NCBI GenBank assembly: GCA_018821985.1 | Contig: JAHJKP010000010.1 | Span: 1-64,000 of the forward strand | From: Pseudomonadota bacterium | Lineage (GTDB): Bacteria; Desulfobacterota; Desulfobulbia; Desulfobulbales; Desulfocapsaceae | DNA: 64,000 nt | Direction: 5' to 3' | Notes under the pieces: model-generated | Told to the model about the DNA's origin: nothing | Database searches by the model: none | What the model saw: only the letters and a program-made list of their open reading frames with translations | Made by a program: the position numbers and the translations under genes | Shown here: in pieces, positions 19,438 through 27,804 of the stretch | How the letters are laid out: every line of letters starts with the position of its first letter | How positions within the stretch are numbered: position 1 is the stretch's first letter

Positions 19438-19755
19438 TCAGGAAAATCGAAAAATAATTTCTTCAAAATGCCTTACCCTTCCTTCGTGGAACTCGACCCC
19501 TTCGTCTTTCAGCATTTTCTTTTTTGCCTCTATAGCGGCCCCCGATGTCTCCCCCTTAAATCCACCAATCCGACCGGATGTGGCGACAACCCGGTGTCAG
19601 GGAACCTCGGGCGCATAGGGGTTTCTTTTCATGGCCTGACCGACCCCCCGATACGCCCTGGTTTCCAAGGCATGGGCAATTTCTTTATAGGTCGTTACAC
19701 GCCCTTGAGGCACCTTCCTCAAAAGGTCGTATACTTTATCTGAAAAAGTTTTCAT
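19438..19755 (-). CDS. Selenocysteine-containing O6-alkylguanine-DNA alkyltransferase (MGMT family)
   Basis: A 105-residue frame that opens MKTFSDKVYDLL and shows every landmark of the alkyltransferase DNA-binding domain: GRVTTYKEIA (18-27), Arg finger R36 in AYRGVGQ, hinge N45 in KRNP, EVP-x-HRVV at 50-57 and GRIGGF (61-66). The x at 53, normally the alkyl-accepting cysteine, is TGA at 19597-19599. The frame continues 52 sensible residues past it. On the mRNA, nucleotides 14-35 after the UGA fold into a CCAC/GUGG and AUCC/GGAU stem with a GGUC loop, like a bacterial SECIS. The ATG overlaps the kinase stop. The alternative is a nonsense-mutated pseudogene, including a TGG-to-TGA change in a Trp-type alkyltransferase-like protein. 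Confidence 0.75.
19562..19583 (-). promoter_or_regulatory. Candidate bacterial SECIS hairpin in the alkyltransferase mRNA
   Basis: CCAC-AUCC-GGUC-GGAU-(UG)-GUGG on the minus strand, starting 13 nt after the in-frame UGA. The apical GGUC sits 22-25 nt past the UGA, close to its place in E. coli fdhF, and resembles the GGUCU loop bound by SelB. Confidence 0.65.
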
Positions 19756-20867
19756 TCATCCTCCAGCAGTGTTGTCCTGATCGGTCGCCGCCGCTCCTTC
19801 GCGAGGTGGATAAAAACCGCGGTCCCCTCGGCATATCGGGATTGAACCTCGATCCTGTCCATCTGCTCCTCTACGATTTTTTTGGCAAAGGTCAGACCCA
19901 TACCGATATGTTTGGTTTTATTGGTAAAGAATTGTGAAAAAATATGGGAAGTATATTCAGGGCTGATGCCGCAGCCTTGATCGCGGATGGTAATGGTGAA
20001 TGGCCAGGTCGGGTCGCTGGAGCGGCCGACGGCAAAAGTCACCATATTTTCGGGGCCAGGGGTGGAGTAGGACTCGCAGGCATTGACGACCAGGGCCTCC
20101 AGGGCCTTGAGGATGAGATCCATGTCAATGATAAGACTTTCCTCCCCAATCCCTTCTTCATACTTTCCCTGCCAGGTGCAGCCGAGTTCCGTGGCCATGT
20201 CCTTGAAATTTGTTTCTGCGGCCTCGATGATCTCGGCTATCGTGTTATGGCGCAGACAGGGTTTGGGCAGACGGATAAAACTGTTGATTGAATCAAGGAG
20301 GGCTTCAAGGTAGGAGGCCTCCCGCTGGATGGCATCGATTCGCCTGGCATACGATTCCTTGACATCAAGACGTTTGCATAGACCGCCGATGACCATGACA
20401 GGATTACGGATCTGGTGGCTGATGTCGTCCAGCATCCTCCCCAGGAAAAAGAGTCGTTCCGACTCGCTCAGAGTTTGTTGAATGGCCTTCATCTCGGTGA
20501 TGTCATGGATGGTCATGGCGATGCCCGCGATGTTTTTGTCCAATTGAAAGGCTGAGGCGGCAATGAGGCCCTGGAAGGTGGTGTTATCCCGGCGCAGCAG
20601 CATGCATTCTCCCTCGAATTCACCGTCGTGGGTCGTGAGATGGAGGATATTGGGAACAAGAATATCACGGTCATCCGCCATGAAGAGGGAGGCGAATGGC
20701 AGGCCAAGGAACTGGTTGAGTTCCATGGCAAACATCTGGGCGGCCCGGCGATTGGCAAAGATGATTGCGTGCTCACGATTAATGACTATGATTGCGTCGT
20801 GGACGATCTGGAGCAGATTGCCGTAAAGGGAGGGGGGGTATGCTTCCTGGCAATTTTTCATCGGCAT
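19752..20867 (-). CDS. PAS-domain sensor histidine kinase
   Basis: A 371-residue soluble kinase without transmembrane segments. A PAS domain covers about 15-125. The phospho-acceptor histidine is His 151 in LDDISHQIRNPVMVIGG, and the ATPase has NACES (N box), RDQGCGISP (G1), FTNKTKHIGMGL (F and G2 boxes). It should sense a cytoplasmic signal and phosphorylate an unidentified response regulator; none is adjacent. Its stop overlaps the start of the Sec-alkyltransferase (ATGA), and the kinase tail supplies a GGAGG ribosome site for it, so they are cotranscribed and coupled. The link between the two activities is unknown. Confidence 0.88.
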   Translation of the reverse strand: MPMKNCQEAYPPSLYGNLLQIVHDAIIVINREHAIIFANRRAAQMFAMELNQFLGLPFASLFMADDRDILVPNILHLTTHDGEFEGECMLLRRDNTTFQGLIAASAFQLDKNIAGIAMTIHDITEMKAIQQTLSESERLFFLGRMLDDISHQIRNPVMVIGGLCKRLDVKESYARRIDAIQREASYLEALLDSINSFIRLPKPCLRHNTIAEIIEAAETNFKDMATELGCTWQGKYEEGIGEESLIIDMDLILKALEALVVNACESYSTPGPENMVTFAVGRSSDPTWPFTITIRDQGCGISPEYTSHIFSQFFTNKTKHIGMGLTFAKKIVEEQMDRIEVQSRYAEGTAVFIHLAKERRRPIRTTLLEDE

Positions 20868-21125: not shown

Positions 21126-21926
21126 TCAGCCTTTTTTCTTAGCGGCAAAGATCTCGTCCTTAAGCATCAGCATCGAATCAAAGGCAAATGGCAGGCTGAG
21201 ATAGAGGCTGGCCACCATGGAGATCACCAGGCTGCTGAAGATGCCGATCATGATCATGATCTGGTACTTGATGGCCACCAGCGGAAAGGAGCCGCCCAGG
21301 ATCTGGCCGGTCATCATGCCCGGCAGGGAGACGATGCCGATGGTCATCATGGAGGCGATGGTGGGAGCCAGGGAGCTGCGGATCGCCTCCCGCATGAAGG
21401 GATGGACCGCCTCTTTGAGGGTGGCACCCATGAGCAGATAGGTGAGGAAGGTGCTTTCGTCCTTGCGCAGTCCGGAGTAGAAGCGTTCCAGGGAGAGGAT
21501 ATTGCCGTTCATGCAGTTGCCGAGCAGCATGCCGGCCAGGGGGATCATGTAACGGGCGTCATAGAGAGGGGTCGGCCGGACCACGAGCAAGAGAAAGATG
21601 CCGAGCACGACAAGGGTGCCGCAGGCGACTCCGGCGAGAGAGGGCCAGAAGAGTTTTGTTACCGCCAGCCCTGCCTTTTTGAGGATATTCAGATTGGCGA
21701 CCACCATGATCACCATAATCCAGAGGACATTGAGCAGGAGGCTGTTGACGGCGAAGAGGTACTTGAGATAGATGCCCACCAGAAAGAGCTGCACGCTCAT
21801 CCGCACAACGCTAATCAGCACCTCGCGCCCCAGGCCGAGCTTCAGCCGCCGGAGAAGGTACAGTGGCAGAAGCAGCAGCAGGTAAAGGAGGGCGAATCCG
21901 GTCAGCGGGATATCAAGGGCCTCCAT
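21126..21926 (-). CDS. fetB: FetB-family ABC transporter permease
   Basis: A 266-residue polytopic membrane protein of the UPF0014/FetB family, with the conserved REVLISVVRMSVQLFLVG near 34-51, GMLLGNCMNGNILSLERF near 132-149, REAIRSSLAPTIASMMTIGIVSLPGMMTGQILGG in the C-terminal half. In E. coli FetAB exports iron and enhances peroxide resistance. Its start overlaps the end of the ATP-binding gene, so they form a two-gene operon. Iron as the substrate is transferred from the family. Confidence 0.87.
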   Translation of the reverse strand: MEALDIPLTGFALLYLLLLLPLYLLRRLKLGLGREVLISVVRMSVQLFLVGIYLKYLFAVNSLLLNVLWIMVIMVVANLNILKKAGLAVTKLFWPSLAGVACGTLVVLGIFLLLVVRPTPLYDARYMIPLAGMLLGNCMNGNILSLERFYSGLRKDESTFLTYLLMGATLKEAVHPFMREAIRSSLAPTIASMMTIGIVSLPGMMTGQILGGSFPLVAIKYQIMIMIGIFSSLVISMVASLYLSLPFAFDSMLMLKDEIFAAKKKG

Positions 21927-22564
21927 TATTTCTCCTCCCGGAGAATACCGTTTTCAATGGTGAAGACCCGGCTGCAGCGGCCGATCCACTCCGGATCATG
22001 CGAGATGGACAGCACGGTATGATCAGACTCAAGGAGAAAGGAAAATACGGCATCCTTGCTCTCCGCATCGAGGGCCGAGGTGATCTCGTCGGCAAGGAAG
22101 ATCCGCTTGTCGAGCAGGATGGCCCGGGCAATGACCAGCCGCTGCTTTTCGCCGCCGGAGAGGGTCGCGCTTTTCTGCCGGAGAATGGCGGGATCAAGCA
22201 GGAGCCGATCAAGCACCGCCTCTATCTGGGCGGCGGTCGGCTCCTTGCCGCTGTGGGCCTTGAAGGTAAACGGCAGCAGCAGATCTTCGGCCGCAGTCTC
22301 CCGGCTCATGCCCGGTTCCTGGGAGATATAGGCAATCTCCTGCCGGATCCGCTGGATATTCTCGGGCACAACGGCAAGGCTGCCTACCCGGATAGCCCCT
22401 GCCGTTATCGGTGTTCCGCCGACCACGGCCTTGAGCAGGGTGCTCTTGCCGCTGCCCGATCTACCGCGCAAGACCACCTTTTCCCCGGCCATGACGGACA
22501 AAGAGATATCCCGCACCAGGGTCCTGCCCTGCATGGAGATGGCCACCGCCTCAAAAGAGATCAT
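21926..22564 (-). CDS. fetA: FetA-like ABC transporter ATP-binding protein
   Basis: A 212-residue ATPase with Walker A GRSGSGKST, a Q-loop in AYISQEPG, the signature LSGGEKQR, Walker B IFLADEITSALD and the H-loop histidine in SISHDPEW. The start at the ATG at 22564 has a TTGAGGATAAAC ribosome site; a TTG four codons earlier is less likely. It powers the FetB permease encoded immediately downstream. Confidence 0.87.
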   Translation of the reverse strand: MISFEAVAISMQGRTLVRDISLSVMAGEKVVLRGRSGSGKSTLLKAVVGGTPITAGAIRVGSLAVVPENIQRIRQEIAYISQEPGMSRETAAEDLLLPFTFKAHSGKEPTAAQIEAVLDRLLLDPAILRQKSATLSGGEKQRLVIARAILLDKRIFLADEITSALDAESKDAVFSFLLESDHTVLSISHDPEWIGRCSRVFTIENGILREEK

Positions 22565-22619
22565 GTTTATCCTCAAATTCCAAATCCCAGATCAAAAGAC
22601 CGAGGCCGAAACTCCCCAC

Positions 22620-23789
22620 TCACCCCTTGATCACCGCCAGAGGACGCAGTGCCACCAGCACCTCCACCAGATCGAGCTGATTCTCAATCACCTCGTCAAT
22701 GTTCTTGTAGGAGCCGGGCGCCTCATCAAGATCGCCTACCGAACGGACGGCATGGATGATCCCCTGATCATCCATCCGTTTCTTTTCCTGTTCCAGATTG
22801 AGCTGGCGCTGGGCCTGTTTGCGCCCCATCTTCCGCCCGGCCCCATGGGCGCACGACTCAAAGCTTTCAGGGTTTCCCTTGCCCTTGACAATATAGCTGG
22901 GACTCCCCTGCGATCCCGGGACAATGCCGATCTCCCCGGCCTTGGCACTGGTTGCCCCTTTGCGATGAACCAGGACATGCCTGCCAAAATGAAGCTCCAT
23001 GGCCGCATAATTATGGGCAATATTGATCATCTCCTCAAAGAACACCGGCTGCACCACGGACAAGAGGGCATCCTTGACCCGCTCCATCATCATCTTCCGA
23101 TTGGCAAAGGCAAAAGCAACACAGTAGCGCATCTCCTGCAGATAGGTCTGAGCTTCGGCGCTGCTGATGGGCAGGAATGCCAGCTGCCAGCTTTTCGGGA
23201 TGTTGGACCCCAACTTCCTGTTCAGATCCATAGCGAGATGATTATAATAGTTGGCAACCTTGAAACCAATATTGCGGCTGCCGGAATGGACCATCAGCCA
23301 GATACGCCCGTCATCTCCCTTCTGGATCTCGATGAAATGATTTCCGCCCCCCAGGGTCCCGATCTGGGTGAGCGCGGACTGATATTCCCTGGAAACAATG
23401 GTCAACTGGTCCAGAGAGACATCTGGCTTGGGCATTAGCCTCGGATCCTGCTTCTTTTTATGATGGCTGAAACCAAGGGGAACCGTCCTTCTGATCTCAG
23501 CCAGCACCCATTTCAACTGTTCCGTGGAAATGGTGGTAAGCGAGGTCCGCACCGCACACATGCCGCAACCGATATCAACCCCGACCGCATTGGGGATCAC
23601 CACTTCTTCCGAGGCCATCACCCCGCCGATGGGCATACCATAGCCCTGATGGGCATCCGGCATCACCGCCACGTGTTGAAAGATGAAAGGAAGATTAGCG
23701 AGGTTTCTCGCCTGTTCAAAGGCCCCCGAATCGATATCATCCAGCCAGAGTTTGATCGGTTGTTTTTCTGTGGTAATGACCTGTTTCAT
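22620..23789 (-). CDS. rtcB: RtcB-family RNA ligase
   Basis: A 389-residue RtcB protein. Manganese ligand and catalytic motifs are present: DAHQGYGMPIGGV, GVDIGCGM, LGGGNHFIEI, HSGSRNIG, AHNYA, and the guanylylated histidine in SCAHGAGRKMGR. RtcB joins 2',3'-cyclic phosphate and 5'-OH RNA ends using GTP and Mn2+. The start at 23789 has an AAAGGAGGGC ribosome site; a longer frame to 23834 is not needed. No RtcA or RtcR gene is adjacent, so it is not in the classical rtcBA arrangement. It is clear of fetA by 55 bp. Confidence 0.9.
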   Translation of the reverse strand: MKQVITTEKQPIKLWLDDIDSGAFEQARNLANLPFIFQHVAVMPDAHQGYGMPIGGVMASEEVVIPNAVGVDIGCGMCAVRTSLTTISTEQLKWVLAEIRRTVPLGFSHHKKKQDPRLMPKPDVSLDQLTIVSREYQSALTQIGTLGGGNHFIEIQKGDDGRIWLMVHSGSRNIGFKVANYYNHLAMDLNRKLGSNIPKSWQLAFLPISSAEAQTYLQEMRYCVAFAFANRKMMMERVKDALLSVVQPVFFEEMINIAHNYAAMELHFGRHVLVHRKGATSAKAGEIGIVPGSQGSPSYIVKGKGNPESFESCAHGAGRKMGRKQAQRQLNLEQEKKRMDDQGIIHAVRSVGDLDEAPGSYKNIDEVIENQLDLVEVLVALRPLAVIKG

Positions 23790-23983
23790 AGGAAGCAGCC
23801 CTCCTTTGATCAAGCCCCGGCTATTGAGGCCCAAGAATGAGAGAAAACAAGAGTAGAGCCAAACAACACAGATGTCCTCTTTAAGTCTCTTACACTAACA
23901 GCATCTTGTACAGGTATATTATGCCATAAAAAACCAGGAAGAGTGGCTGTCATGCCCGGAAATAATCAGCGGGCATGGCTGAT

Positions 23984-25869: not shown

Positions 25870-27804
25870 CTAAGAAACTTTTTTACGCAGGACCCGGGTA
25901 TCACCAACACGAATGGTCAGTTTAATTTTATCAAAATACTCAAGTAAAGGAATGGAAAACTTCCGGGTCAGACCGGTCAGTTCCTTGAAGCGCGGGGCGT
26001 CAATCTCCCCCTCACGGCTGATGAAGGCAATGAGTTCCTGGGCCAGTCCATTGATGGTGTCGATGTGATAATAGAGACTTTCACTGATTTTAACCAATCT
26101 CCCCTGCCGCAGCAGCAAGGCAAGCACCTCCTTGACCATGCTTTCCGGGGCATCAGCAAAATGATCCATACTCTCACGGATGGTGGCGGTGGCCAGCCCT
26201 TTCTGCCGATACCACTCCTCCAGATCGTGTTGCAGCGCCTTCTCATCCGCCTGCAGGGCCACCCGATGGGTGGTGAGCCGCACCACCGACTCCTCCTGAA
26301 CAACCAGCTCTTTTTTCAGCAGTTCACCCAGGCAGAACTGAAAAATCTTCTGCTCCACTCTTCTGCCAAGCCCGGAGCGCAACTCTTCTTTCGACAGACC
26401 GCTCTGCAGAGGGTTGTCACGATGAAAAGCGGCAAGGGTGGCAAGCAGAGTCTCTTCCACCCCATCACTTACCGTCTTGGCCAGATAGCGCTGGGACGCG
26501 GAATCAACCACCACGATCTTCCGGGTTGAAAGCGGGCCCGTCATCACCTTTTTCAACTGCTTGCCAAAGAGCCCGATACGAATGGAGAGTTCATCGGCGG
26601 TCAAGCCGGTCGTCTGACTCTCCTCCAAGAAAAGGAGGATCTGGTCTTCAACAGTTCCATGTTGCAGGATCTGAAAGACCTCAGCATTTACTTGACGATC
26701 GTGTTCCGTGGCCCGTTTCCTTTTGCGTGCCGGCTGATTCCCCAGCACCCTGCCGCCGCCAATGGTCGTCGCCGGAGAATAACTGCGCACCACATAGCGG
26801 TCACCGGGCCAGACGGCTATGGGCTCCTCAAAAAGAAGCTGGACTGCGGCGGTATCCCCCGGTAACAATTCATCCTGTTCCAGCAGGGAAATACGGCCCA
26901 TGAGCTCGGCCGTCCCCAGATGGATACGCACCCTGGTTCGGTGTTTGAGCGGTTTTTCGTTGGCAGCAAGATAAAGGAAGTCGCAATCGAGCATGAAACC
27001 TGGCTGCAAAGATCCGGGAGTAGCCGCCACCATTCCCCGTTCGATGAGTGCGGTATCAACCCCCTGCAGATTGATGGCCGTCCTATGTCCGGCCTCAACC
27101 TCTTCTACAGAGTGGGAATGAACCTGCAGGCCACGCACCTTGGCGATCAGCTCAGAGGGATAAAAGCGCAACTCTTCACCGATGGCGACGCGTCCGGAAA
27201 TAGATGTCCCGGTAATCACCGCGCCAAAACCTTTCATGGCAAAGACCCGATCCACCGGCAGACGAAATGGTCCATAGACTTCTTTGAGTTCCTGCCTGGC
27301 GACAAAACGGTCGAGCTCCTCTTTCAGCTCTGCAATCCCCTCACCGGTGGTGGATGAGACACGCAGCAGAGGGGCCTGTTCCAGAAAGCTCCCTGCACAG
27401 AAATCACGCACCTCCTCTTCCACCATATCCAGCCACTCCGCTTCCACCATATCTTTCTTGGTGATAACGATAATGCCCTCTTTCACCCCGAGCAGACGAC
27501 AGATCTCAAAATGTTCCCTGGTCTGGGGCATGATCCCCTCATCAGCCGCCACGATAAAGGCCACCAGGTCCATCCCCATGACCCCGGAAACCATATTCTT
27601 GACGAACTTTTCATGACCGGGAACATCAACGATCCCCAAGCGATGCCCACAGGGCAGATCCAGATAGGCAAAACCCAGCTCAATGGTGATTCCACGTTTT
27701 TTTTCTTCCTTGAGCCGGTCTGTTTCGATACCGGTCAGGGCCCTGATCAGGCTGGTCTTACCATGATCAACATGGCCGGCTGTGCCGAGAACGATTTCAC
27801 GCAT
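25870..27804 (-). CDS. selB: Selenocysteine-specific translation elongation factor
   Basis: A 644-residue EF-Tu-like GTPase. G motifs: [12 protein letters not shown] near the N-terminus, [11 protein letters not shown] (switch I), DVPGHEKF, and TKKD in place of the usual NKxD. EF-Tu-like beta-barrels follow. After about residue 370 the C-terminal arm of winged-helix repeats ([39 protein letters not shown]) binds the SECIS hairpin. SelB delivers Sec-tRNA to UGA. The start at 27804 begins [16 protein letters not shown] as in the family; earlier in-frame starts add an unconserved 25 residues. selA, selC and selD are not in the window. Its presence supports reading the TGA in the nearby alkyltransferase as Sec. 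Confidence 0.94.

Follow-up and report, generated by a model that had tools for sequence, protein, structure and literature searches.

A predicted selenocysteine-containing O6-alkylguanine-DNA alkyltransferase in a Desulfocapsaceae genome

The minus strand of the stretch of DNA analysed here (the window, 64,000 nucleotides) carries a gene that very probably encodes a single-domain O6-alkylguanine-DNA alkyltransferase with selenocysteine (Sec) as its suicide nucleophile. On the level of sequence, this reading is based on the reading frame, the UGA at the acceptor codon in orthologues, a conserved hairpin, the Sec machinery of the genome and the retained catalytic residues. The features of the window that bear on it are the following:

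19438..19755, minus strand: frame of the predicted Sec-containing O6-alkylguanine-DNA alkyltransferase (105 residues, Sec as U53), ending in a UGA stop
19597..19599, minus strand: UGA codon 53, predicted to be read as Sec, at the alkyl-acceptor place of P-U-H-R-V
19562..19586, minus strand: SECIS-like hairpin, in which an ATCC/GGAT upper stem closes a GGUC loop and the lower stem contains a bulged C
19752..20867, minus strand: PAS-domain sensor histidine kinase gene, upstream of the alkyltransferase
25885..27795, minus strand: selB, Sec-specific elongation factor (TIGR00475, 391.5 bits)

The alkyltransferase frame runs from an ATG (M1) at 19755 to a UGA stop at 19440-19438, followed by an in-frame TAG. 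The original prediction described an intact frame around a TGA at the Cys codon of the PCHR motif, and re-reading the frame gave the same result, with 52 residues N-terminal and 52 residues C-terminal of codon 53; the encoded protein would be MKTFSDKVYDLLRKVPQGRVTTYKEIAHALETRAYRGVGQAMKRNPYAPEVP-U-HRVVATSGRIGGF... (where U is codon 53). The UGA stop of the kinase gene and the ATG of the alkyltransferase overlap as ATGA, which suggests that the two may be co-translated in this genome. A PAS sensor kinase gene was not found in the same place beside the orthologues. Standard gene callers end genes at UGA and, therefore, Sec genes of this kind are easily missed.

When Cys is written for U, the protein matches both PF01035 (DNA_binding_1, residues 4-87, 95.1 bits, cut-off 27) and TIGR00589 (ogt, 74.9 bits, cut-off 46.4) above the curated cut-offs, as is expected of an O6-alkylguanine-DNA alkyltransferase, and a six-frame genome search found PF01035 across the UGA (88.6 bits, one TGA inside the match). 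The active site reads P-U-H-R, which is equivalent to the P-C-H-R of the Cys acceptor only if Sec counts as a functional substitute. As had been claimed, R36, N45 and the GRIGGF motif are all present in the window protein, and so are Y23, H54 and E85; we take Y23, R36, N45, H54 and E85 to have the roles of the Tyr, the Arg finger, the Asn hinge, the His and the Glu of the family, respectively. Y23, N45, H54 and E85 were found in 18/18 aligned Sec proteins and R36 in 17/18, the sole departure being a Gln (Q36) for the Arg finger in one orthologue (L047), while across all 35 aligned proteins Y23 and N45 are invariant and H54, R36 and E85 are present in at least 90%. This orthologue, from genome G709, is also the Sec orthologue least similar to the window protein among those aligned, and PF01035 matches once more in its genome, in a frame of 112 aa that contains no UGA. 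The predicted structure (mean pLDDT 91.2, from the 35-row alignment) has as its best PDB fold match S. pombe Atl1 (TM 0.79), followed by human AGT, a two-domain protein (TM 0.74, rmsd 1.5), and a Sulfolobus O6-methylguanine methyltransferase (TM 0.73). Active-site roles for the Asn, the His and the Glu are described in the accessible text of PMC4150793.

We then examined codon 53 in relatives of the window gene. All 53 sense-codon relatives that were read at this position have Cys (TGT or TGC) and none has Trp. The TGA does not turn up at random sites, a pattern named in advance as one that would speak against the prediction; it lies at the same codon 53 in 20 further distinct orthologous sequences, and the other warning sign, further frame-disrupting changes, is likewise absent, there being no further stop inside the Sec orthologues, which align over their whole length. 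Shared at the acceptor position by the window gene and 20 orthologues, the UGA is no random stop. The 20 sequences (21 with the window gene) come from 34 Sec loci besides our own, all of which share the UGA at codon 53, are otherwise free of stops and have an ATCC-GGTC-GGAT with its loop at +22; 35 UGA loci were checked, of which a script confirmed 34, and the 35th, the window gene itself (L003), was shown by direct reading. Hence, there is an in-frame UGA, flanked by conserved sequence on both sides, that aligns with Cys in homologues, as in known selenoprotein genes.

In a search of the phylum, 355 of 395 genomes had some match at E 1e-3, and codon 53 was read in the best 30 of these 355, giving four UGA (our own genome, G218, G252 and G208) and 26 Cys; the automatic TGA flag on the match rows is unreliable, as two flagged loci (L017 and L019) have Cys at codon 53. 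Of 34 loci from a contig scan, 15 (L033-L047) carry UGA at codon 53, 17 carry Cys and two (L049 and L066) lack an aligned column. The Sec gene is rare: at E 1e-20, 15 of the 257 genomes of the window's own class had a match, of which four have UGA, ten Cys (family f118) and one a deletion, while the matches in a second class (4/85 genomes) and a third (12/389) were all UGA. The deletion is an in-frame loss of 26 codons (P46-S71) in an orthologue (L049, 932-1168, the same as L100 in G407 C123), which removes both the Sec codon and the hairpin and leaves the remaining frame open, and could be either a real loss or an assembly artefact; a further PF01035 match in that genome is free of stops. Thirteen of the 15 titled Sec loci have record titles that name Desulfobacterales, Desulfobacteraceae, Desulfobulbaceae, Desulfurivibrio, Desulfosarcina or Deltaproteobacteria, and the other two are titled Olavius-associated proteobacterium Delta 1 (L045) and Proteobacteria only (L040). 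Plasmid records gave 307 matches, all below 60% identity, and viral contigs 13 loci, with 41% in the best segment.

A hairpin with a GGUC loop had been placed 22-25 nt past the UGA, and it is found exactly there: ATCC-GGTC-GGAT lies at 19579-19568, with the loop at 19575-19572 (+22 to +25), and this 12-mer occurs once in the window. The criteria for bacterial SECIS elements given in the available part of PMC13188914 are a loop of 3-9 nt, a stem of 4-16 bp, a G in the first two loop positions, a distance of 16-37 nt from the UGA and an MFE of at most -7.5 kcal/mol, and the window hairpin falls within all of them: its loop is GGUC, its stem has 10 bp and one bulge, the intervening distance is 21 nt and its MFE is -10.9 kcal/mol. 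Among 18 Sec orthologues, two miss the -7.5 kcal/mol limit and two have another best loop. The 45-nt stretch folds no better than its shuffles (z 0.15, 115/200 at least as good), so that the folding energy of the hairpin is not above chance. Nor do the best hairpin energies set the two groups apart: they range from -6.5 to -11.1 in the 18 Sec genes and from -4.1 to -14.1 in 17 Cys controls, which can thus form hairpins of equal energy in the same place, and we discarded folding energy alone as uninformative.

A GGTC loop is the best hairpin in 0/17 Cys controls, and 13 columns, CATCCGGTCGGAT, are invariant among the 18 aligned orthologues. In these, every one of codons 58-63, which correspond to the hairpin, has a synonymous identity of 1.00, compared to a mean of 0.62 over codons 1-51 and 0.69 over codons 65-104; outside codons 58-63, it reaches 1.00 at the single codons 25 and 40 only, and a run of six fully identical codons was seen in 0/100,000 permutations. 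RNAalifold of the 18 orthologues returned the AUCC/GGAU stem and the GGUC loop, plus a lower stem. One pair of the lower stem is A-U in 13, U-G in three, G-U in one and unpaired in one, so that in 3/18 both sides have changed from A-U to U-G with the pairing kept; a second doubly changed pair lies in the outer stem, which is broken there in 5/18. As the upper stem is invariant, support from covariation is thin.

The genome has the complete set of selenoprotein machinery. The selB that had been noted in the same window is 6 kb from the alkyltransferase, and the absence of selA, selC and selD, which would have told against the prediction, was not observed, since all three are present (selA 628.5 bits, tRNA-Sec 58.7 bits, selD 380 bits). 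The tRNA-Sec match is above the gathering score of its Rfam model, with the anticodon UCA in the alignment; ARAGORN did not report a tRNA-Sec in this genome. The selD gene (G000 C39:73000-73941, L076) itself carries an in-frame UGA close to its start, and a hairpin-like stretch comes after it. We found selA in 13/14 other Sec genomes (G679 had no match), in 7/8 genomes with a Cys relative and also in G407. Because it occurs in Sec and Cys genomes alike, selA is needed but not telling, and its correlation with the Sec form was set aside as uninformative.

We also looked at other copies of the domain. In 4/14 other Sec genomes (G218, G252, G208 and G710), PF01035 matches nothing but the Sec gene, while the remaining ten have at least one further match, some of them partial. 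The only other match in the window's own genome (C7:28869-29057, L002) is in pieces in different frames and, from a reading of the letters, looks like a decayed Ada-type gene; this genome may thus have no intact PF01035 copy besides the Sec gene.

One alternative is a pseudogene, in which a nonsense mutation or a sequencing error has turned the TGC or TGT of an ordinary Cys alkyltransferase into TGA. Both codons are one base from TGA, and the genome is in 57 contigs. Such an event would not, however, put a UGA at the same codon of 20 further distinct sequences, nor would it explain a synonymous constraint that lies exactly at the hairpin. In addition, in the 15/17 comparisons with the window gene in which dS was computable both before and after the UGA, dN/dS was 0.03-0.15 for codons 1-52 and 0.13-0.53 for codons 64-104; it is higher after the UGA than before, yet below 1 in every computable comparison. 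The shared UGA and the selection downstream of it rule out a pseudogene or sequencing error, to which we give practically no weight. Hence, the evidence that the window holds a real gene and not a chance stop is strong, and it is the comparison with relatives, and not the folding, that excludes chance.

Two further explanations accept the gene as real. A near-cognate Trp-tRNA could read through the UGA, as the main product or under selenium shortage, giving P-W-H-R and thus the form of the alkyltransferase-like (ATL) proteins. These do not transfer alkyl groups; they bind to lesions and flag them but carry out no repair. Readthrough of UGA by tRNA-Trp is a known phenomenon, and S. pombe Atl1, the best fold match, has PWHR at the acceptor place; on the other hand, the conserved GGUC hairpin and the full Sec machinery point to SelB, and Cys, never Trp, is what the sense-codon relatives carry, which makes this explanation highly improbable. 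The gene could also encode a true selenoprotein that is not mainly a suicide enzyme of DNA repair, and instead binds metals or electrophiles, senses redox changes or accepts methyl groups reusably. The cost of one Sec per lesion would be high, the upstream partner in the window's own genome is a sensor kinase with an ATGA overlap, and for the majority of prokaryotic selenoproteins a redox function is assumed (PMC9312934, accessible text). Against this stand the residues for base flipping and alkyl transfer, kept in all but the Arg finger of L047, the neighbours that vary among orthologues, the four genomes in which the Sec gene is the sole PF01035 match and the repair by an engineered Sec AGT described in the available text of PMC4150793; we regard such a role as very improbable. 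We give similarly little credence to a further reading, in which the gene is a selenium-gated switch between repair and lesion marking, or in which the Se-alkyl protein is regenerated and hence is not a suicide enzyme. As a switch, it would yield the Sec repair enzyme with selenium and, without selenium, a P-W-H-R product by near-cognate readthrough with Trp-tRNA, an ATL-like protein that would mark lesions for another repair route.

The history of the Sec form was addressed with a tree of 54 rows and few columns, whose bootstrap values are unsettled. The 19 Sec rows group with a single Cys row (L007) in one set with a support of 92/95, just under the mark for good support of the tool, and the nearest rows outside are Cys proteins of DPANN archaea, Campylobacterota, Verrucomicrobiota and Patescibacteria. 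The best tree has two changes of state, with one change in only 3% of 200 bootstrap trees, while the well-supported branches force one change only. This would fit either a single gain of Sec with a reversion to Cys in L007, or a branching of L007 inside an unresolved fork. No conserved operon partner was found in 24 loci, many of them short (ORFs of at least 70 aa near the gene, blastp 1e-8): the clusters with at least three members are frames that overlap the alkyltransferase itself on either strand, apart from one cluster of four loci (our own, L039, L042 and L102) that appears, from a reading of the letters, to consist of kinase or response-regulator pieces in differing places. A rare gene with differing neighbours is as expected for horizontal transfer, by which the Sec gene may have moved. 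Elsewhere in the window, 22620-23834 (minus) encodes a 404-aa homologue of the RNA ligase RtcB, with an intein-containing RtcB family as its best, though below cut-off, NCBIfam match, and 21126-22576 (minus) an ABC transporter pair (UPF0014 permease and ATPase) that resembles FetA/FetB and is below the curated cut-offs for both.

The Sec-containing alkyltransferase is already known as a kind, and the window gene adds a member. Homologues of this type had been mentioned as part of selenoprotein surveys, and the family is indeed in print as a predicted prokaryotic selenoprotein (PMC9312934, PMC13188914 and PMC2398784, available portions of each), which lowers the novelty of the finding and leaves its correctness untouched. 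The first two list a "Methylated-DNA-protein-cysteine methyltransferase", with ABB14497.1 as example; PMC9312934 credits the work of Zhang and Gladyshev 2007 on the delta-1 deltaproteobacterial symbiont of Olavius algarvensis, to which the UGA-53 orthologue on the contig of an Olavius sp. associated proteobacterium Delta 1 can be likened by title alone. The Global Ocean Sampling survey contains one Sec methyltransferase sequence of the PF01035 kind (PMC2398784), and an algal selenoproteome paper names an "MDP" selenoprotein of the alkyltransferase family (PMC7539508), both as given in the accessible text, while the available main text of PMC8318568 names no Sec alkyltransferase. The predicted Sec methyltransferase of these lists (COG0350/PF01035) is of the same family as the window gene and is listed as a selenoprotein. 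In one library, judged by titles and abstracts, we found no assay of a natural Sec alkyltransferase.

Among the known proteins closest to the window gene, Cys single-domain homologues (such as L007, L048 and L050-L058) have the same domain, a similar length and 43-65% identity, with TGC or TGT where the window gene has TGA. S. pombe Atl1 (PDB 3gva) is likewise a single domain of similar length and has Trp at the acceptor place, where the window gene has UGA and so lacks the PWHR of ATL proteins. An engineered human AGT carries Sec at the alkyl-acceptor position (Sec145), as is predicted for the window protein, but is man-made, by a route through an amber codon and EF-Tu in place of the UGA and SECIS-like hairpin of the natural gene. 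According to the accessible text of PMC4150793, the source for this protein, a preparation in which Sec145 AGT was mixed with the Ser145 form protected E. coli deficient in ada and ogt against MNNG, Ser145 AGT alone gave no protection, and N137A was tolerated by Sec145 but not by Cys145 AGT. The natural Sec proteins, in contrast, keep this Asn; that N45 is invariant in them, although Sec145 AGT can do without it, suggests that N45 probably has a second role there.

The kept residues and the fold, together with the repair by the engineered protein, favour direct alkyl transfer to the selenolate as the reading of the window gene; Sec insertion in the cell, the substrate and a single turnover are inferred. 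The GGUC hairpin at UGA-53 would bind SelB carrying Sec-tRNA(Sec), allowing the ribosome to insert Sec. The helix-turn-helix would scan DNA, with the R36 Arg finger helping to flip out O6-methyl (or alkyl) guanine, and U53, as the selenolate, would accept the alkyl group directly in a single SN2 step, so that the guanine is restored and the protein is spent in its Se-alkyl form. A selenol at the acceptor might also, as had been suggested, alter how fast or how reversible this suicide reaction is. Under selenium shortage, translation would end at codon 53, and the resulting 52-residue fragment would lack the acceptor, so that repair may depend on the selenium supply.

Redox selenoproteins use Sec again and again. 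If a Sec is indeed consumed for each repaired lesion, this raises the question of why selection keeps it. The clade of 21 Sec sequences and the adjacent Cys relatives would provide matched pairs in which the benefit of selenium in single-turnover DNA repair, and whether repair capacity follows the selenium supply, could be tested.
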